A stretch of 64,000 nucleotides of DNA, taken from the NCBI RefSeq assembly GCF_019703855.1, contig NZ_AP024086.1, positions 1,074,501-1,138,500 of the forward strand, written 5' to 3'. The DNA is from Desulfomarina profundi (GTDB taxonomy: Bacteria; Desulfobacterota; Desulfobulbia; Desulfobulbales; Desulfocapsaceae). Below, in pieces: positions 5,543-46,222 of the stretch. Made by a program: the position numbers and the translations under genes. The notes under the pieces are model-generated. The model did no database searches. It was given only the letters and a program-made list of their open reading frames with translations, and was not told the DNA's origin. How positions within the stretch are numbered: position 1 is the stretch's first letter; each line of letters starts with the position of its first letter.

Positions 5543-8356
5543 TCAACTATCAAGAACAGACCGGAGTGTTTTGGCAAGATCGTGCATGGGTATCGGTTTG
5601 CTTAAAAAAGCAGTAACAGCGTTTGTGGTGTTGCGATGCTGGTTGTGGCCTGTACAGATGATCACAGGGATATCAGGATTGATGGTTTGGAGCTTTTCAG
5701 CAAATGATATACCTGTCATTTCAGGCATAGTCATGTCGGAAATGACCAGGTCAAAATGATTTGATTCTATCTGCAAAAGCTGTAATGCCTCCTGTGGACT
5801 TGTTGTCCCATGGACACTGTAACCAAGCCTTCGCAGCATTTGTGTGGTCATTGAGACTATTAATTCTTCATCATCCACCACCAGGATTTTTTCGTTGCCC
5901 GTACGGGGTGTTTTGTTATTTATTGCTGTTATTTCATGAGGTTGATTGGTTGCTGGAAAAAGTATAGTGAAAATGACACCATTATCGCTTCTGTTTCTGA
6001 CACTGACGGTGCCGCCGTGGTTTTTTACAATGCCATGGACAACAGCCAGCCCCATACCCGAACCTTTACCAATTTCCTTAGTCGTGAAATATGGATCAAA
6101 AACCCTGTCGATTATTTTGGGATCAATTCCCTGCCCATTATCACTTACTGTCAGGCGAACATAATTTCCGGGTAATGAGTGATTGCTCTCATTGCCTTTG
6201 TCGGCACAAGTAACCGTATCAACTGAAATCTCTATAACGCCTCTCTCATGGTCAATTTCATGAGAACTGTTAATACACAAATTCATAATAATCTGGTTAA
6301 TCTGGACAGGATCTGCAAGAACTGTTTTTTCGTTTTCGCATATTTTTTTTCGAAGTTCAATCGTGGTTGGAATTGTCGCCCGAAGAAGTTTCAATGTTTC
6401 GCATACAACAGGACCGATTTTTATCGGTATATGATGTTGGTTGGTTTTTCTGCTGAAACTGAGAAGCTGCTTAACTATACCTGAAGCTCTTTGACTGGCA
6501 TGATTAATCTCTTCAAAATGCCGGCGTGCTGGATTGTTATGGGAAACACTTTCCAGGGCCAGTTCACAATTGCCAAGAATTATGCTGAGGATATTGTTGA
6601 AATCATGTGCTATTCCGCCTGTAAGGGTGCCGATGGATTCCATTTTATGGGCGTGTCTCAGTTCCTCTTCCATCTGCTTTCGCTCAGAGATGTCCGTCAG
6701 AATAACAACAAGACCAGTGTGTTTTTCTGAAAAATTTCTAACTATTGCGGCACTCAGATGAACAGGAATTGTTTCTCCCTGTCTGGTTAATCTTGCTGTT
6801 TCCATTTGGAGAGGTTGGCCGGTTTTAAATATTTCCTTGATCTTACTCTCGGTGATATTTTTCTCCTCTTCAGGCACAAAAGGGATACGTGTTTTTTCCA
6901 GTTCTTCCAAAGTCCAGCCGAATACCTCGGTAAAAGAAGGGTTTAAATAAAGAGGAAAGCCGCTACTGTCGTAAACTACAAGAGGATCAGGGATAGCTTG
7001 AAGTATGGCAATGAGTTTTTCCTTACTGTCCCGCAGTTCGGTTTCAACCAATTTTCTTCCGGTTATTTCGTGGTTGAGTTTGCTCAGCATGTCCTGGAGC
7101 TGACTGGACATAGTGTTAAATGAGTTTGTCAAAGTGCTGATTTCAACAAATTGATTTTTATCTTGAATTGCGTTTCCCCATTCTCCTCTGGCAATATTGA
7201 GTGCACCGTTGCTGAGTTGTAAAATTGGCAGAGCTATCCTTTGGGCGATGAAAAAAATAAACAAGGTGCTGAATATAATTGCGCAGAGAGAAAGAAAAAT
7301 TGTTGTACGGTTGTTTCTGGTAATCTGTGCCATGAAATCTGCTTCAGGGATGACCACTCCAATGAGCCATGTGAGACCATTTGCATTTGTTAAAGGCGTA
7401 ATTTGTACCAGTTGACGTTCACCCTTTATTTCGAAATCAAAGTTTTCCGTTGAGGTAATAAGATTATAATCTGTAAAACGTTTTCTCAGTGATTCGTTGG
7501 CATATTTAATGGTCGGGTTTAAACTTTCAGTGCCATTCAATCGCCGTGGCTTTTGACCGACAGCAGGTACGGTGAGAGGTTTTTCTCCAGATGAGGCGGC
7601 AATGAGTTTGCCGGAGCGATCAATGATGAAGGCCTGGCCGTGGTGGCCAATGGCCAGGTTTTGTAAAAAATTACTGATTTGGGAAAGGAAAATATCGACT
7701 GAAACCACACCAAGCAGCTGGTGCTCCTTATTATATACCGGACGACTGGCTGCAATTGCCATGTCCTGTCCAGTAAAAAGAATGTAGGGTTTACTCCAGG
7801 TGTTTGTTCCTTCTCTTACGGCCCCCTTATACCAATCTCTTGTACGGGCATCAAATTCCGGGATTGCGACGATCAGGCTGGTACGATTACCATCTGCGTC
7901 TATGGCATATTTTTTGAGGGTTCCTTTACGAAAATCATCCGTCAGAATAACATATTGAGAATCTGTGATTCCTTCACGACCGCAGTTGACCAGACCTCCA
8001 TATGTATTACCAAAATAAATGCTGGAAACGGAATCATATACCAGGAGCTGGCCTCTGAAATAGTACTCGATACCTGCAGGATCATTTACATTGAGTAAAC
8101 CATTTTTCAAGACATTACTGTTGAGTGTATTGATTTTCCGTGGTGCGTTGAGAAAGGTTTCAAGGTGGTTTTCGATACGGGTTGCTATTTCATTGCGCAG
8201 AGCGTGGGCCACATCATTAACGGCATTTTTGCTATTGATAAAGGAAAGATACCCAACAAGTCCTACAATCAAGACAGTCAAAAAGGTAAAAGGGATAATG
8301 ATGGCGATGGTAAGTGGAACAGCTCTGGCAAATATGTTCTTAACGGAGTTGAGCAT
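5543..8356 (-). CDS. dCache-HAMP-PAS hybrid sensor histidine kinase with receiver
   Basis: 937 residues. Order: TM helix (about 15-40), periplasmic double Cache ligand-binding domain (45-345), TM helix (352-375), HAMP (376-430), PAS (445-560), HisKA with phospho-acceptor in GGIAHDFNNIL (about 585), HATPase_c with N, G1 (DNGQGID) and G2 (GKGSGMGLA) boxes (640-800), and a C-terminal receiver (815-937) with VVDDEE and the phospho-Asp in VISDMTMPEM. The receiver ends the protein without an output domain, so the phosphate must pass to another protein or act back on the kinase. Cache domains bind small molecules such as amino acids or carboxylates. The gene stands alone between a convergent PEBP gene and a region of unclear content. 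Confidence 0.93.
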   Translation of the reverse strand: MLNSVKNIFARAVPLTIAIIIPFTFLTVLIVGLVGYLSFINSKNAVNDVAHALRNEIATRIENHLETFLNAPRKINTLNSNVLKNGLLNVNDPAGIEYYFRGQLLVYDSVSSIYFGNTYGGLVNCGREGITDSQYVILTDDFRKGTLKKYAIDADGNRTSLIVAIPEFDARTRDWYKGAVREGTNTWSKPYILFTGQDMAIAASRPVYNKEHQLLGVVSVDIFLSQISNFLQNLAIGHHGQAFIIDRSGKLIAASSGEKPLTVPAVGQKPRRLNGTESLNPTIKYANESLRKRFTDYNLITSTENFDFEIKGERQLVQITPLTNANGLTWLIGVVIPEADFMAQITRNNRTTIFLSLCAIIFSTLFIFFIAQRIALPILQLSNGALNIARGEWGNAIQDKNQFVEISTLTNSFNTMSSQLQDMLSKLNHEITGRKLVETELRDSKEKLIAILQAIPDPLVVYDSSGFPLYLNPSFTEVFGWTLEELEKTRIPFVPEEEKNITESKIKEIFKTGQPLQMETARLTRQGETIPVHLSAAIVRNFSEKHTGLVVILTDISERKQMEEELRHAHKMESIGTLTGGIAHDFNNILSIILGNCELALESVSHNNPARRHFEEINHASQRASGIVKQLLSFSRKTNQHHIPIKIGPVVCETLKLLRATIPTTIELRKKICENEKTVLADPVQINQIIMNLCINSSHEIDHERGVIEISVDTVTCADKGNESNHSLPGNYVRLTVSDNGQGIDPKIIDRVFDPYFTTKEIGKGSGMGLAVVHGIVKNHGGTVSVRNRSDNGVIFTILFPATNQPHEITAINNKTPRTGNEKILVVDDEELIVSMTTQMLRRLGYSVHGTTSPQEALQLLQIESNHFDLVISDMTMPEMTGISFAEKLQTINPDIPVIICTGHNQHRNTTNAVTAFLSKPIPMHDLAKTLRSVLDS

Positions 8357-39202: not shown

Positions 39203-39418
39203 ATGGGGAAAATAAGTGCAATTTGTGTGATGCTGTTGCTTGGTGGTTGTGCCTCGTTCAGTGGGAAACCGGAAACGGTGATTCTCCGGAATCCCCAAAC
39301 AATGGAATTTGTAAACTGTGAAGTGAGCAAGTGGGAAACGGAAAGCTCATACAAGGCCAACGAACAGTGTGTGAAGGACTATGAGGCCAAAGGCTTTGTG
39401 GTGTGGGGGAAACGCTAA
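39203..39418 (+). CDS. Small lipoprotein
   Basis: 71 residues. The leader ends in the lipobox LLGGC with Cys16. The mature part of about 55 residues is polar, has two further Cys (FVNCEVSKW and NEQCVKDYE) that could form a disulfide, and ends GFVVWGKR. A good RBS (AGGAG, 39191-39195) supports it. Similar small lipoproteins are widespread in proteobacteria with no known role. The stop overlaps that of the convergent dCache-AlbA_2 gene by four bases (CTAA). Confidence 0.8.
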   Translation: MGKISAICVMLLLGGCASFSGKPETVILRNPQTMEFVNCEVSKWETESSYKANEQCVKDYEAKGFVVWGKR

Positions 39419-40962
39419 TCTCCTGAGAGGTCTATGGTGTGATCCTGGGTAACATAGCGAACGGTCTGGGAAGGTGTGAGTTTCGCAGACGACGGTCCGG
39501 AGCGCACATAAAATTCTTCATTTTTACCTATATGGAGGAAAATCGGTGTTGAAGCTGGAGAGCATTCTATCAGCAGGGCTTCCTTGTCTTCAATTTCAAC
39601 CAGGGTTGTTTCTATAAATCTTGAGAATTCAGCGCCAATATGGTGATTGATAAGGTTTTTGACATGAAGAAGACACTTGTCCCTGTTTTCAAAATTGTCT
39701 TTTTCCAGCCCTGTGAGTTCTCCGTTATCATTGACACCTATAAGCAATGTTCCGCCTCTGGTATTCAAAAAGGCAACAACAGTTTTAAGCCACGCCAGTT
39801 CAATTTCCTTGCCGTTTTTATCTGTTTTCAGATTGAAACGGACTGTTGATTTAAATTCAATCTCAGGCCCTTCCCCCCGGTTGATTGCCTCATTGAGTCG
39901 TACAATCGGAGTCTTATTTTTTTTCTTTCGCTGGTGGGTCTTCATAAAGAGTAGATAGACCAGCCCTGTTCCGGCAAGAGCGATCAGCAGGTCGAAAAAA
40001 TCGATTTGAAACAATTTGGCATTGATCTGGCTCATAAACTGTTTTTCAGGTGCTGCCACCCCAAGCCAGAAATTAGGGTGATCCGTGTTCAGGGGTTGCA
40101 GCGATGCAAGCCATGGCTGCTTACCCTTGAGGAACTGGACAACCTGGTTTCTTGGCTGCCCTGAATCGTTCCATTTGTGGATAAGGATATCCAGCAGTTC
40201 ATTTTTCTGGGAGATTTCATCAGAGTTGCTTGAGATATACGTGTTTTCGGAAGAGTTGATAAGAAAGACGATTCCGGAATATTTCTTATTTCTGATGGAA
40301 AGGAATTTTTCTATATTGGCAAGGGGAATATTGAGTCCGAAGACTGAATAGACCTGGGAACCATTATGTTTCCAGGAAACAGAGGTGGTGACTCCTTTTT
40401 CCTTTGAGTAAATGAATGTTCGCACCGGGGTGATATGGATGCGATTTTTTTTGTCAGGAGTAAAAAACCAGCTCATCTGCCGGGGATCATAGTCGTCAGT
40501 TTTTTTCCATGTTTTCAATTCCTTATCCACGGTCTGCCATTCGGCAAAATGAAGCGTCCGGGGAGTACTTTTTAAATCATGTGAATACCTGGTTATTGTC
40601 CTTTGGCCATCCTTGTAGAGAAAATATTCGTCCCCCATGCTGTTGGCCAGGACAAGACTGTTGATGATGGTCTTGTTTTCAAGAAGAGGGAAGAACAGTT
40701 TATTAAGATCGTGGATGTTTTCGTAGTGAAGAGCGCCATTTGCTCCCCACTCCCTTACAATATTGAGTTGTTCCGTGATTGAGGCAAAAAATACCCGTAT
40801 TTCACCCAGTTCGACATTGCTTATTTCTGAGATCAACGTTGGCGCAATTTCTGTTTTGATTTTCAGGTATTGATAGATATTGATACCGGCCAGGAAAAAG
40901 ATGAAACTTGTGGCCAGCAGAAAAATCTTTTTCATCAGACTGATTTTTGTCATATTCAGCAT
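39415..40962 (-). CDS. Membrane-bound dCache sensor fused to a Schlafen/AlbA_2 domain
   Basis: 515 residues. TM helix 12-32; an extracytoplasmic domain 40-318 with Cache-like features (LVLANSMGDEYFLYKDG, 'WFFTPDKKNRIHITPVR', 'PNFWLGVAAPEKQFM'); TM helix 321-341 followed by a basic stop (HQRKKKNK); then a cytoplasmic AlbA_2/Schlafen-type domain 365-505 with EIEFKST (Glu367, Glu369, Lys371), 'VVAFLNTRGGTLLIGVNDNGELTGLE' in parts and EFYVRSG. AlbA_2 domains bind nucleic acid or act as RNases, usually in soluble regulators. Here the domain takes the place of a kinase or cyclase. The SBP lipoprotein gene ends 58 bases upstream. Start could also be Met4 or Met10. Confidence 0.8.
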   Translation of the reverse strand: MLNMTKISLMKKIFLLATSFIFFLAGINIYQYLKIKTEIAPTLISEISNVELGEIRVFFASITEQLNIVREWGANGALHYENIHDLNKLFFPLLENKTIINSLVLANSMGDEYFLYKDGQRTITRYSHDLKSTPRTLHFAEWQTVDKELKTWKKTDDYDPRQMSWFFTPDKKNRIHITPVRTFIYSKEKGVTTSVSWKHNGSQVYSVFGLNIPLANIEKFLSIRNKKYSGIVFLINSSENTYISSNSDEISQKNELLDILIHKWNDSGQPRNQVVQFLKGKQPWLASLQPLNTDHPNFWLGVAAPEKQFMSQINAKLFQIDFFDLLIALAGTGLVYLLFMKTHQRKKKNKTPIVRLNEAINRGEGPEIEFKSTVRFNLKTDKNGKEIELAWLKTVVAFLNTRGGTLLIGVNDNGELTGLEKDNFENRDKCLLHVKNLINHHIGAEFSRFIETTLVEIEDKEALLIECSPASTPIFLHIGKNEEFYVRSGPSSAKLTPSQTVRYVTQDHTIDLSGD

Positions 40963-41020
40963 ACTTCTGAATCCGTGACGGTTTTTTTATTTTTATATGG
41001 TAGGGGGCCTCAGGAGGAAA

Positions 41021-41803
41021 TCATGGTTGATAATATGGTACCCACTGCTGTATTAACGGGACGAGATTTCCGGTCCGGGTAAGACTTTTAAGATAATTAT
41101 TGGCATTTTCAAGTAAATTTCCGTTGTCGGGACGAATTGCCCAGGCCAGGGATTCTTTTGTCAGGAGAATATGGGTGGGAATGAGTCCTTTGTCTGCATA
41201 TTTTGAGGCGAGATACAGATTCTGGGGCAGATCGTAGATTAAGGCATCAATTTTCTTTTCCAGCAGTGCCTTTACACCATCGGTTGAAACAGGATAAATT
41301 TTTCGTGCGCCTTTTGCCTTGATATCCTGGATGAAAAGGTCTCCGGTGGTACCGGCTACTGTACCAAGCCTCACCTGAGGATTGAGCAGGTCCGAAATGG
41401 ATCCGTCAAACCTGTTTCTGTCTGTTCTGCGGATAAGGGCAATTTGGCCGGAAACCATATATGGAGTGGAAAAACGGATTTGATACCTGCGGAGTTCGGT
41501 AATCGTCATACCGGACATTATAATATCAATTTTACCCCGTAGGAGTGAAGAGATCTGATCTTTCCAGGGGAGTTGCACCAATTTCAGCTTTTTGCCTGTA
41601 AATCTGGCCAACCCCTCGGCAAAACTGACTTCAAGACCTGTGATTTTCCCTCCCTGTCGGTAAGCAATGGGAGGAGAATTGGTTGATATGCCGACCCTGA
41701 GGAAATTATTCAGGTTTTCTTTTTTAACTGTTTTTTCGCTGACAAGACTGGTGCAGCCTGAAATTATAAAGAAAAGGAAAACAAGAAGAGTCAGGTTTTT
41801 CAT
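41021..41803 (-). CDS. Orphan solute-binding lipoprotein, SBP_bac_3 family
   Basis: 260 residues. Lipobox IISGC with Cys17. The mature part is a family 3 periplasmic binding protein: LRVGISTNSPPIAYRQGGKITGLE in two parts, 'LLRGKIDIIMSGMTITELRR' (the ligand-site Arg), 'LGTVAGTTGDLF' and 'VKALLEKKIDALIYDLP'. These bind polar amino acids or related compounds. No permease or ATPase gene is adjacent. Instead it is transcribed toward the dCache-AlbA_2 gene. It could present its ligand to that sensor or to the hybrid kinase upstream. Confidence 0.87.
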   Translation of the reverse strand: MKNLTLLVFLFFIISGCTSLVSEKTVKKENLNNFLRVGISTNSPPIAYRQGGKITGLEVSFAEGLARFTGKKLKLVQLPWKDQISSLLRGKIDIIMSGMTITELRRYQIRFSTPYMVSGQIALIRRTDRNRFDGSISDLLNPQVRLGTVAGTTGDLFIQDIKAKGARKIYPVSTDGVKALLEKKIDALIYDLPQNLYLASKYADKGLIPTHILLTKESLAWAIRPDNGNLLENANNYLKSLTRTGNLVPLIQQWVPYYQP

Positions 41804-41971
41804 AGTAGTTTTGAGGGATGGAGAAAAATTGCCAGGCTTATCAGACCTGTATCTGAATAAGCCTTGTTGCGGAAGAAATGCTGGTCAGGAACGATAGTAT
41901 TCCATGACTCTTATTTTTACAATCTTTTATGCCGGAATAAACAAAGAGAAAGATACAGTTGAAGGGGAGAG

Positions 41972-43876
41972 CTATCTTCTGATTTCCTTGTGAATGGTCA
42001 GGGCGAGATCTGAAAGGTTGAGGGGTTTTGAAAGATAGTGTATCACTCCAAGTTCTTTGATTTTATTCAGCTCCACAGGGTTGAAGAATCCTGATGCTAC
42101 AACGGCCTTTTGGTCGGGAACAATCTTCAGAATCTCCTTGTATGTTTCATATCCGTTTATCCCTGGTTCCATAACCATGTCCATAAGCAGGAGGTCGACT
42201 GGCCATTTTTTTATATACTCAATGGCTTTTTCTCCGCTTGACGCGGTTACTGGATTATAGCCGAGTCTTTTCAGGATACAGGCAGTCAGGTCTCTCTGGG
42301 ATTGTTCATCGTCAATGACAAGAATTATTTCACCGTTTCCCAAAAGAGAATCGAGGGATACGGATGAAGTATCTCTGCGCGGTTCTTCTTCATTTGCCGG
42401 GAAATAAAGTTCAAAAAGAGTACCGTTTGAGTCGCTTTTTACATCAATATATCCCTGGTGGTCGCGTACGGTATGAAGAATAACTGTCAGGCCAAGACCG
42501 GAACCGCTTTTCCCCAGTTTTTTCCTGGAAAAAAAGGGTTCAAAAATATGAGGAAGTGCAGATGCGGCGATTCCGGATCCGGTGTCCTGTACAGAGAGTA
42601 CAGCATATTTTCCAGGAGGAACAGTATCATAACCATTCTTAGGTTCTGCCAGGATCTCATCCCTTGTGGACAGGTATATATGCCCCCCACTGTTGATGGC
42701 CTCGGCTCCATTACGGATGAGATTGATAAGAACTTTTGTGATATGGATCGGCGAGACCAGGCTATTGCTGAGATGGGGGGAGAGGTGAAAATCAATAAGA
42801 ATTCCGGGGAAAGACTGAATAAGCTGGTAATAGTCGAGGGAATCCAGGTAATCTTTTATGATATCATTGAGATTATGATTTTCTTTCTGGCAGGTGGATC
42901 CCCTGGCAACGGTCAGCAGGTCTTCCACAACTGCTGCTGCCTGTTTACCTGCTGCCCTGATACGGATAATGTCATTCCTGTATTTTTCCGATGAAGGCAT
43001 GTCGAGGAGCAGGAGTTCGGGAAAGGTGACGATACTGCTGAGAATATTATTCAGGTCATGGGCCACGCTGCCGGCCATCAAGCCAATTGACTCCATTCTC
43101 CTGGCATGATCCAGTTTTTCACGCATCAACAGGTGTTCCTGTTCATGTTTCTTTTTTTCAGTGAGATCACGTATGGCTGCAACCCATAACAGCCTGCCGT
43201 CGTCATCAATCTGCCTGAGTCTGATTTCAGCAGGAAATGTTTCACCGTTGAATCGTATTGCTTCTATTTCACAAATATGACTGAGTGATTTTCTGCCGGA
43301 GAATATTTCAAATTGTTCTGATAACGGCAACGCCGGAAGAATTTCAAAAAAATCACGACCTAAGACTTTTTTTTCATCCACAGCCAGTAGTTTGCAGAAC
43401 TGGTCGTTGACTTCAATAATTTCTTCCATGGAAAAAATGACAATTCCTTCCCATGTGGCCTCTGAAAGTCTCTGAAATTTGTTTTTGTTGGCTGTCAACT
43501 CAGTCTTCAAATTCTGTGTTTCAATGGCTCGTTTAATGACCTGGTGTACTCTTTCCGGTTTGCAGGGTTTGGTGAGATAATCATAGCAGCCTGTACGGAT
43601 GGCCTGGATGGCGGAGTCAACAGAGGCTCTTCCTGTGAGAATCACGGTAGGCAGGTCCGGATAATTTTGAGTCAGGTATTCCGCAATTTCAAGACCATTG
43701 AGATCCGGGAGATGCAGGTCGAGAAGAACGAGATTATATTTCTGTTGGGAAAGAATGGTGAAGACTGCTCCACCCGAAGATACAGTATCGACAGTGTAGC
43801 CTTGATTCTGCAGCACACGTTTGATACTGTCTCGGAACTGGGGTTCGTCATCTACAACTAAAATTCTTTCTGGCAT
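41972..43876 (-). CDS. REC-PAS-histidine kinase-REC hybrid protein
   Basis: 634 residues, no membrane helices. N-terminal receiver (1-120, LVLLDLHLPDLNG), PAS (about 132-240), HisKA with MAGSVAHDLNNILSSI, HATPase_c with IRNGAEAIN, DTGSGIA and GKSGSGLGL, and a C-terminal receiver (about 515-634, LLLMDMVMEPGING). Double-receiver cytoplasmic hybrids act inside phosphorelays, taking input from another kinase. It has no DNA-binding domain. It lies between the HDOD kinase and the SBP lipoprotein, all in one direction. Confidence 0.9.
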   Translation of the reverse strand: MPERILVVDDEPQFRDSIKRVLQNQGYTVDTVSSGGAVFTILSQQKYNLVLLDLHLPDLNGLEIAEYLTQNYPDLPTVILTGRASVDSAIQAIRTGCYDYLTKPCKPERVHQVIKRAIETQNLKTELTANKNKFQRLSEATWEGIVIFSMEEIIEVNDQFCKLLAVDEKKVLGRDFFEILPALPLSEQFEIFSGRKSLSHICEIEAIRFNGETFPAEIRLRQIDDDGRLLWVAAIRDLTEKKKHEQEHLLMREKLDHARRMESIGLMAGSVAHDLNNILSSIVTFPELLLLDMPSSEKYRNDIIRIRAAGKQAAAVVEDLLTVARGSTCQKENHNLNDIIKDYLDSLDYYQLIQSFPGILIDFHLSPHLSNSLVSPIHITKVLINLIRNGAEAINSGGHIYLSTRDEILAEPKNGYDTVPPGKYAVLSVQDTGSGIAASALPHIFEPFFSRKKLGKSGSGLGLTVILHTVRDHQGYIDVKSDSNGTLFELYFPANEEEPRRDTSSVSLDSLLGNGEIILVIDDEQSQRDLTACILKRLGYNPVTASSGEKAIEYIKKWPVDLLLMDMVMEPGINGYETYKEILKIVPDQKAVVASGFFNPVELNKIKELGVIHYLSKPLNLSDLALTIHKEIRR

Positions 43877-44083: not shown

Positions 44084-46222
44084 TCAGGATGTTAATGGAA
44101 TCGTCACGGTAAATGTGGTTCCGGTTTCCGGGTCTGAAACATGTTGTATTGACCCACCCAGGTCATTGATAATTTTGCGGATGATAGCCAAACCAAGTCC
44201 TGCATGCTCCCTATCCTTAGTTGTGTGGCCAGGTTTGTAGAGTGTTTCGCTCACTGATGAAGAGATACCGGGGCCATTATCGGACACAATAATTTTTACG
44301 CAAGGGGATTTTCTGAGGGTATTATCATGTTCCAGCCGTGTTTCCACTCGTATCGTTCCTGTGTCTCCCAATGCTTCAATGCTGTTGTTTATCAGGTTGT
44401 TCAGAATCTGGCGAATTGCACCGGGGCGGCTGAGTGCGGTAATCTCTTCGGGCGCAAGGGACAGGGTGATCCCTATAGTCGAAGTGGTTTTGAAAGATTT
44501 TTTGAAGAGATCCACCGCTTCTGCCACGATTCTGTTGATATTCACTTTTTCAAGGCCTGCAGGGGATTCAGTGCCTGAAAGATTGTTGAGTCTTTTGCTG
44601 ATACCGTTAATTCGATCAAGTTCATTTGAAATTACCTGGAGATCCTTCTGGAGTTCCAGGTCTCGAAGATTGTCGGCAAGCAGAGAAATGTAGTTCTGGA
44701 TAATGGACAGGGGATTTGATATTTCATGTGCTATTGAGCGGGCAATCGATTCTTTAGCAGCTGCACGTTCCCTTGCCAGTTCTTCAGCGTGTTTTTCTTT
44801 CAAGAGCTCCAGATTGAGACGGTTTCCCAGATAAGTGCATGCAAGAACGAGGGGCTTTTCTTTTGACATGACTGTTGCGAACTCATGGGAGTCCATTGCA
44901 ACCAGAACTATTCCCTTGCTGTTACCCATCAAGGTGAAAGGGACTACAGCAAAACAATTTTCCTTCATGATAAGGCGAAGTCGGCTGACAAAAATACGGG
45001 ACTGGTCATTGCCGCCATCCTGCAGACGGATTATTCCATGATTCTCTGTGAGTTTCTTGAAAAAAGCAGATTCTGTATCGAGCGACAGAATGCCATGTTG
45101 CATCTGTCGGGCAATCGGATTTCCGGTTGAGCCGTGAACAGACAGTTTTCCTGGAGCACGGTTGTCCGGCAGCAGGATTATACATTTATGGATACAAAAT
45201 ACTGTCTGGAGATTTTCTTCAAAGAGTGCAAATATCCGGTCTGGTGTTTCTGCCCGGCTGAGGCTGTCCAGAAGACCATGATTCAGGGCAATAGTCTCCA
45301 CTGTTTTCTGTAACTGTTCTTTACCGGTTTTTTTCGCGGATACAGTTTTTCTTCCCTGTAATCTCTGCTGGGGGATTTCCGGAGCGGAAATACTCATGTT
45401 CATCGATTCAGCGATGGAAAATACAATGGCTTTTTGTTCCTGAATGATTTCCGGTATTCTCTCACCCGGAACTTCAAGATTTTCAACCTGCCGGAGGGTG
45501 TTGTTGTACCCGGTTCCTGTTTCCAGTGCCAGGGGATTTGCAATATGGATCAGCCGACTGAGTCTGTCGGTTTTTTCCAGATGCAGTGTGGACGAGTGGT
45601 GTTCCCGAATGGCACGGGTTATTTTTTCATCAAGTTTCCAGCGCTCGGTCAGCAAGGCGCCGATTTCCTGGTGTGAAATACCAAAAACATGGTGCTCAAG
45701 CTCTGTGAGTTCATCTGGTGAAGTACAATTCTCTGTAATTTCGCTGTATTTTTCAGGACTGAACTGGTTGAAAATACATTTACCGATATCGTGCAGTAAT
45801 CCGGCAAGATAAGGCTCAGCCGGGTGTGGATAGGTACAGATTTCCGCAAGCCTTTTAGCAATCAAAGCGGTCAGCAGGGAATGGTACCAGAATTCTCTGA
45901 GATTAAGCGGGCCAACCTGGTTCTGTTGAAATGTTTCCTGAACGGAAACAGATATGGCCAGGCTCCTGACGCTGTCAATACCAAGAAAAATTACAGCCTG
46001 TTCGATGCCGGTAAAGGACGATCTGCTCCCGAGAAAGGCGGAATTAGCCAGTTGCAGTATTTTGGCGGACAGCAAAGCGTCCCGGGATATGGTTTTACCA
46101 ATCAGTTGAATGTCAACTTCCGGGTTGTTGCATATATCAAGCAGTTTTGCAAGAGTATGCGGCAGGGTGGGCAGCTGGTCAATGGCTGTAAGCAGTTCTC
46201 TGGTGATTGAAGTTTTGTTCAT
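44084..46222 (-). CDS. HDOD-GAF-histidine kinase
   Basis: 712 residues, soluble. An HDOD domain (about 10-215: LPTLPHTLAKLLDIC, LLHDIGKCIF, 'HQEIGALLTERW') precedes a GAF-like region (about 315-465) and a kinase module: HisKA with SIARSIAHEISNPLSI and HATPase_c with NLINNSIEALGD, DNGPGIS and HAGLGLAI. HDOD domains relate to HD phosphohydrolases but lack full metal sites and usually scaffold signalling. It heads the signalling cluster. It starts 126 bases from the end of sbcC, which runs the same way. Confidence 0.9.
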   Translation of the reverse strand: MNKTSITRELLTAIDQLPTLPHTLAKLLDICNNPEVDIQLIGKTISRDALLSAKILQLANSAFLGSRSSFTGIEQAVIFLGIDSVRSLAISVSVQETFQQNQVGPLNLREFWYHSLLTALIAKRLAEICTYPHPAEPYLAGLLHDIGKCIFNQFSPEKYSEITENCTSPDELTELEHHVFGISHQEIGALLTERWKLDEKITRAIREHHSSTLHLEKTDRLSRLIHIANPLALETGTGYNNTLRQVENLEVPGERIPEIIQEQKAIVFSIAESMNMSISAPEIPQQRLQGRKTVSAKKTGKEQLQKTVETIALNHGLLDSLSRAETPDRIFALFEENLQTVFCIHKCIILLPDNRAPGKLSVHGSTGNPIARQMQHGILSLDTESAFFKKLTENHGIIRLQDGGNDQSRIFVSRLRLIMKENCFAVVPFTLMGNSKGIVLVAMDSHEFATVMSKEKPLVLACTYLGNRLNLELLKEKHAEELARERAAAKESIARSIAHEISNPLSIIQNYISLLADNLRDLELQKDLQVISNELDRINGISKRLNNLSGTESPAGLEKVNINRIVAEAVDLFKKSFKTTSTIGITLSLAPEEITALSRPGAIRQILNNLINNSIEALGDTGTIRVETRLEHDNTLRKSPCVKIIVSDNGPGISSSVSETLYKPGHTTKDREHAGLGLAIIRKIINDLGGSIQHVSDPETGTTFTVTIPLTS

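Follow-up and report, generated by a model that had tools for sequence, protein, structure and literature searches.

The outputs usually ascribed to bacterial membrane receptors are kinases, cyclases, phosphatases, DNA-binding domains and chemotaxis. In the eukaryotic endoplasmic reticulum, Ire1 joins a stress sensor outside the cytosol, through a transmembrane (TM) helix, to a cytosolic ribonuclease (RNase) output. Here we describe a receptor encoded in a 64,000-nucleotide stretch of Desulfomarina profundi DNA (contig NZ_AP024086.1, positions 1,074,501–1,138,500; hereafter the window), in which a dCache-type sensor between two predicted TM helices is followed by an SLFN_AlbA_2 domain. Its sensor fold and TM layout are those of dCache chemoreceptors, histidine kinases and cyclases, with which it shares homologous Cache halves; unlike in these, the output is AlbA_2, and no HAMP domain was found. 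Ire1 is an analogy only, with the same logic built from unrelated domains. On the output side, SLFN13 and SLFN14 carry an AlbA_2-type domain with an E/E/D triad at matching alignment positions, but they are bilobed and cytosolic and have no sensor, whereas each chain here carries a single lobe, placed after a TM sensor part. In the worm piRNA nuclease PUCH a Schlafen-domain nuclease is likewise brought to the membrane by a TM helix, although the complex described there is a eukaryotic trimer of different subunits at mitochondria, with no ligand sensor in that account (PMC10567574). Schlafen-family domains are also found in bacteria, where those of BREX and other defence loci described in PMC12839542 have a minimal histidine kinase and a winged helix-turn-helix as fusion partners, with no periplasmic sensor in that description. 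On the sensing side, LuxP is a solute-binding protein (SBP) that signals through the double-PDC sensor LuxQ (PMC8534201); the present locus resembles this pair in encoding a periplasmic binding protein beside such a sensor, and differs in that LuxQ is a histidine kinase, whereas the receptor has an AlbA_2 output.

We give an even chance to the reading that the receptor is a one-component, ligand-gated, membrane-bound Schlafen-type ribonuclease, its cleavage, substrate and ligand being inferred. Known parts stand here in a new-looking, widespread combination; a literature search that covered subscription papers and bioRxiv poorly found no published account of a Cache–AlbA_2 protein. If true, a Schlafen-type nuclease output would add direct RNA control to the known receptor outputs, and prokaryotic Schlafens would gain a role outside phage defence. 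The reading is directly testable, as the family is compact (~520 residues, one chain), with clear candidate catalytic residues and, in one clade, a candidate ligand-presenting protein.

The AlbA_2 domain and its Schlafen-type carboxylates

The original prediction, made from the DNA letters, assigned the C-terminal part of the receptor to AlbA_2/Schlafen. Pfam confirms this assignment (SLFN_AlbA_2, PF04326, residues 364–495, E 3.4e-22, 79.6 bits against a cut-off of 25.3), and a C-terminus of another kind can be set aside. The family was represented by an alignment of 77 distinct full proteins (A2), leaving out two loci whose main gene was missed by the open reading frame (ORF) caller (L096 and L112), five partial matches and the duplicates L042–L044 and L065; all 77 match the domain at E ≤ 0.01. 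Twenty-seven invariant columns fall within AlbA_2 (residues 352–506) and none in TM1, dCache or TM2, and median identity to the window protein, 56% across AlbA_2, drops to 26% across dCache. By this measure AlbA_2 is the constrained half of the receptor. In an AlphaFold2 model from the 77 sequences (mean predicted local distance difference test score, pLDDT, 90.1), residues 351–500 reach 95–98 per block of ten.

A profile of the domain matched SLFN14 (9nyy, E 4.1e-6) and Schlafen13 (5yd0, E 3.6e-5). In the SLFN14 alignment, E364 and E369 are matched to the two glutamates in TESTHVEF, and D412 to the second aspartate in GVDD; the carboxylate spacings inside SLFN14, counted by hand as 5 and 38, are those of rSLFN13, whose putative active site comprises E205, E210 and D248, with E205A and E210A inactive (PMC5862951). 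Further invariant AlbA_2 residues include W391, H441, R487, G489 and P490. Because the three Schlafen13 carboxylates are invariant in 77/77 aligned proteins, they favour a nuclease over mere nucleic-acid binding.

This bears on an unlikely alternative, a membrane-bound DNA or RNA binder without cleavage in which dCache would control AlbA_2 as a tethered regulator of transcription or translation. There are known one-component membrane regulators whose output binds DNA, the AlbA_2 domain name and the motif reading in the original prediction suit such a role, and the receptor gene lies beside operons it could regulate; however, plain binding would not need all three RNase-site carboxylates, and Pfam found no helix-turn-helix or other DNA-binding family in the receptor at E ≤ 1. 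The many invariant residues beyond the triad could also form another pocket, and several partial plasmid matches are annotated 'ATP-binding protein', as would suit AlbA_2 as a nucleotide- or partner-binding module in a ligand-controlled membrane scaffold that is no RNA enzyme. Those labels are automatic names, however, and the triad fits the tested RNase site in alignment and first spacing; we regard the scaffold as quite unlikely.

The ribonuclease reading is proposed because of the carboxylate triad and the AlbA_2 domain. A small periplasmic molecule would act on dCache, and in the window's clade the neighbouring SBP lipoprotein might present it, as LuxP does for LuxQ. The change would travel via TM2, with no HAMP in between, and reach the AlbA_2 domains of a dimeric receptor. 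Receptors with dCache sensors are usually dimers. Since, in addition, the two lobes of a Schlafen13 chain make it a pseudo-dimer (PMC5862951), dimerization would bring two AlbA_2 lobes together, and these single lobes could jointly make the RNA valley for which animal Schlafens use a fused pair, with the signal setting lobe spacing. Structured RNA, perhaps tRNA, would then be cleaved or spared according to whether the switch is on or off, and an envelope or ionic signal would thereby adjust translation.

Several points weigh against this mechanism. That the receptor dimerizes, and which way the switch works, are assumptions. Pfam gives a single AlbA_2 match per receptor chain, so a chain does not have the two lobes of SLFN13; a homodimer might stand in for them, but the receptor is for this reason not classed as SLFN13-like. 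The second and third carboxylates are separated by 43 residues in the receptor versus 38 in SLFN13 and SLFN14, and the likeness to Schlafens is by sequence, with a best profile E of 4e-6. The neighbourhood theme described below, given as raw adjacency counts, is not uniform.

Sensor half, ligand and binding-protein neighbour

A TM–Cache–TM arrangement had also been predicted, and its layout, dCache fold and family matches hold up, whereas the receptor's own Cache scores lie below the curated Pfam cut-offs (dCache_1, 25.8 bits versus 45; MCP-like_PDC_1, 22.9 versus 27). Among the aligned family members, 59/77 match dCache_1 and 45/77 match MCP-like_PDC_1 at E ≤ 0.01. VIA-align on a first AlphaFold2 model, from 8 sequences, gave Z scores of 15.1–17.8 over the 50 entries listed, which are sensor domains of chemoreceptors, histidine kinases and a diguanylate cyclase; Foldseek on the 77-sequence model returned the same kinds of sensor domains among the matches listed. 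Both searches used whole-protein models, and their listed matches cover the dCache half only. The model proceeds from a helix at residues 3–74 (TM1 and stalk) through a mixed alpha/beta periplasmic part and a helix at 306–344 (sensor end and TM2) to AlbA_2, placing a dCache-type fold between two TM helices. Pfam detected no HAMP in the receptor at E ≤ 1, and TM2 would therefore run almost straight into AlbA_2.

Five positions of the dCache amino-acid motif were tested by alignment to PctA (Y158, R163, W165, Y/F166 and D211 in window numbering; the D146 position lies outside the test), of which we take those other than the R126 and D173 equivalents to belong to the motif. All five are complete in 57/77 proteins; the window protein has M163 at the R126 equivalent and N211 at the D173 equivalent and thus lacks the dCache_1AA motif. 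The roles of PctA R126 and D173 in this motif have been described (PMC10104139). Because M163 and N211 replace their equivalents, the window sensor, on its sequence, should not be called an amino-acid sensor.

The 260-residue protein encoded upstream is a clear SBP_bac_3 match (E 5.4e-27, 94.6 bits, cut-off 26.4). A six-frame profile search upstream of the receptor in the 77 rows found an SBP in 14: the window, three of the same genus (one with a partial SBP at a contig end, L044, which equals L013) and ten others (L045, L047, L050, L051, L052, L054, L055, L056, L057 and L061). All 14 fall within one 31-row clade (Shimodaira–Hasegawa-like approximate likelihood ratio test, SH-aLRT, 100) of a quick, midpoint-rooted family tree with several long branches. 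Tallied over the 66 of 77 rows that remain once 11 with short upstream DNA are set aside, an SBP is upstream in 14/30 informative clade rows versus 0/36 elsewhere, and the tree requires five or more changes. The SBP partner is, on this distribution, a trait of one clade. The predicted assistance by a binding protein is accordingly qualified: the neighbour recurs, but since it is confined to one clade, the family as a whole cannot work through such assistance.

A rule by which SBP-paired sensors have lost their own amino-acid pocket was considered and rejected, as the R126 equivalent is lost only in the four rows of the window's genus and the other 10/14 paired rows keep all five positions. In the SBPs themselves, T102, R105, D186 and D191, positions that serve as ligand contacts in amino-acid SBPs, are kept in 11 sequences; the solved structures nearest to these SBPs are those of ancestral cyclohexadienyl-dehydratase-type proteins and amino-acid SBPs. 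LuxP belongs to a different SBP family. In L050 and L051 an antiporter gene sits between the SBP and sensor genes, and G032 instead has a selenate/PhnD-type SBP gene upstream, with ATP-binding cassette (ABC) ATPase and permease genes read by eye. The Desulfogranum japonicum genome of L067 encodes an SBP 50% identical to the window's on another contig. There (L142, 5512–10454, minus strand) this orthologue closes an mlaE-mlaF-mlaD-PqiC-DUF3124 run, apart from the sensor gene, and a part in lipid transport, or in sensing it, is thus possible for the orphan SBP.

Distribution, interchangeable modules and neighbouring genes

An alignment-pattern scan of 84,980 species genomes gave 228 pattern matches, 147 of which encode relatives; a single-protein pattern scan of the same collection found none. 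The fusion, whose recurrence the original prediction had proposed to count, is thus a recurrent family. Among the best 80 of the 147 relatives, 75 align from residue ≤66 to residue ≥504 and 5 are partial matches; a fusion through assembly error, the other doubt raised at the outset, is rejected because the fused frame recurs over nearly the whole protein in so many other genomes. By taxon, these 80 comprise 53 Desulfobacterota/former Deltaproteobacteria, 21 Gammaproteobacteria or 'Proteobacteria', 2 Kiritimatiellae, 1 Bacteroidetes and 3 labelled 'bacterium' only. Closer to the source, 21 of 58 related genomes (the window's included) have a match and 8, again counting the window's, encode the whole protein (G022 via its ORF); a phylum survey of 297 genomes found near-full-length matches in at least 10, window's included. 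Matches on plasmids (16 in 72,556 records) and phages (1 in 50,697 records) never cover over 80% of the receptor, and a mobile or phage origin of the gene was rejected on that ground.

The two halves look like interchangeable modules, with AlbA_2 filling the output slot of a standard receptor. This follows from homologous sensor halves coupled elsewhere to cyclase, phosphatase or kinase outputs: a search with the Cache part of A2 also brings up proteins with Guanylate_cyc (L131, L134, L138), SpoIIE (L133) and HAMP-PAS-HisKA_3 (L135), in agreement with the earlier view that AlbA_2 stands where a kinase- or cyclase-type output is usual. Within the window, positions 5543–8356 (minus strand) encode a dCache-HAMP-PAS-histidine kinase-receiver protein whose sensor half matches the receptor family profile, the same chassis with another output. 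Conversely, the AlbA_2 profile finds a 448-residue membrane protein (L127) and a 341-residue protein without a hydrophobic stretch (L126). Four AlbA_2 proteins of 268–311 residues (L122–L125) have two hydrophobic stretches and no Cache, and would be membrane-bound Schlafen domains with another sensor or none.

AlbA_2 domains close to the receptor's also end candidate defence proteins of GmrSD_N/HEC-05 type (L128, L040, L041). In L128 the domain follows GmrSD_N (Pfam); in L040 and L041 the N-terminal parts match PADLOC HEC-05, and the L040 domain is 45% identical to the window's. The source genome's two other AlbA_2 proteins, L002 (489 residues) and L003 (633 residues), adjoin helicase/restriction-type and HsdS-like genes as read by eye, a setting that differs from that of the sensor gene.

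Neighbouring genes were scanned at 88 sources (80 contig loci, 7 genome loci and the window, with some contigs present under two ids). Genes for mlaE, mlaF and mlaD precede the sensor in L052, L054, L057 and L037, and mlaD alone does so in L056, at a contig edge; PqiC occurs in the same five loci and in L116, and DUF3124 in L045, L046, L047, L050, L051, L055, L057, L061 and L116. This mla context lies on both sides of the tree's midpoint split, L037 in one half and L052–L057 in the other. Directly upstream, NhaA is found in L037, L038, L039, L116 and L139, and a CPA2/Kef-type antiporter in L050, L051, L088 and L098 (in L139 further up). At eight gammaproteobacterial loci a squalene/phytoene-synthase-type gene, which NCBIfam identifies as HpnC in L104, precedes the sensor gene, and seven have a second one downstream; L104–L106, L108, L109, L111 and L121 are thus flanked by two such genes of the HpnC/HpnD kind. 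A Pfam tally of 51 same-strand upstream genes gave 8 SBP_bac_3, 8 squalene/phytoene synthase, 4 Na_H_Exchanger and 1 NhaA; it uses longest-ORF calls, which chose antisense ORFs in GC-rich contigs and missed some SBPs. Most loci show none of the mla/PqiC/DUF3124, antiporter or hopanoid-type neighbours. The window locus keeps the SBP only, DUF3124 and MlaD lying elsewhere in its genome; with a single region above the PF00999 cut-off and a single DUF3124 in that genome, such genes do not appear to be common.

The recurring neighbours suggest envelope or membrane homeostasis rather than phage defence, an envelope purpose that we propose because of the neighbouring genes alone. More tentatively, and as something possible rather than probable, the receptor may be a ligand-gated transmembrane ribonuclease, one protein in which a homodimer of Schlafen lobes cleaves RNA in direct response to an extracytoplasmic signal from the envelope, without phosphorelay or second messenger; this would be an Ire1-like logic from unrelated parts, tied to lipid-transport, hopanoid and ion-antiport genes. 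An anti-phage effector, whose dCache would sense envelope damage or phage entry and whose Schlafen domain would stop translation, is in our view improbable. PMC12839542 links Schlafen RNases with BREX and further defence loci, and the GmrSD_N- and HEC-05-type relatives and the restriction-type neighbours of the two other AlbA_2 proteins, described above, are consistent with such a role. However, the receptor's only PADLOC match is weak and partial (pAgo, 17.3 bits, profile positions 59–167 of 1121), its neighbours among the families listed are metabolic, lipid, ion and signalling genes, the plasmid and phage records hold no match over 80% of its length, and the order of the locus is kept within the genus. 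No defence theme appeared among the Pfam-scanned neighbours (25/55 and 25/46 families listed), which were not searched with a defence library.

The source locus

Features of the receptor locus (window positions; minus strand throughout)
Feature	Positions	Strand	Basis
SBP_bac_3 binding lipoprotein, 260 residues	41021-41803	-	ORF list; Pfam; lipobox ISGC, Cys17, by eye
TM-dCache-TM-AlbA_2 receptor, 515 residues	39415-40962	-	ORF list; Pfam; family; AlphaFold2 model
TM1, residues ~13-33, hydrophobic stretch within model helix 3-74	40864-40926	-	by eye and model
Periplasmic stalk and dCache sensor, residues ~34-321	40000-40863	-	sub-cut-off Pfam matches; fold search; model
TM2, residues ~322-340	39943-39999	-	by eye and model helix 306-344
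SLFN_AlbA_2 domain, residues 364-495	39478-39873	-	Pfam; PDB profile matches to SLFN14 and Schlafen13
E364, counterpart of rSLFN13 E205	39871-39873	-	invariant 77/77
E369, counterpart of rSLFN13 E210	39856-39858	-	invariant 77/77
D412, counterpart of rSLFN13 D248	39727-39729	-	invariant 77/77

The SBP gene lies upstream of the receptor gene on the same strand, 58 bp away, and by ORFs and Pfam neither a permease nor an ATPase gene lies next to it in the window, which sets its product apart from the binding protein of an ABC importer; coordinates, strand and Pfam match thus agree with the lipoprotein without transporter genes noted initially. A shared transcript is inferred from the short gap and the conservation of the pair. 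The receptor start codon is uncertain, either the ATG at 40962 or M4 as in same-genus orthologues. A terminator-like site at 41849–41833 (minus strand) falls between the upstream kinase gene and the SBP gene, and none was listed between SBP and receptor, in a scan barely above chance: promoter and terminator counts exceeded those of shuffles little, at 11 versus 8.5 and 8 versus 5.1.

The next gene upstream of the SBP gene (41972–43876, minus strand) encodes a receiver-PAS-kinase-receiver protein (Pfam). This hybrid kinase was rejected as an operon partner, since the same-genus G004 has another gene upstream of its SBP. Further upstream lies an HDOD-kinase gene (44084–46222, minus strand; Pfam). 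On the other side, a small lipoprotein-like ORF identified by eye (39204–39418, plus strand) is convergent with the receptor gene and overlaps its stop by ~4 bp; a resembling ORF is present at L013 1049–1291.

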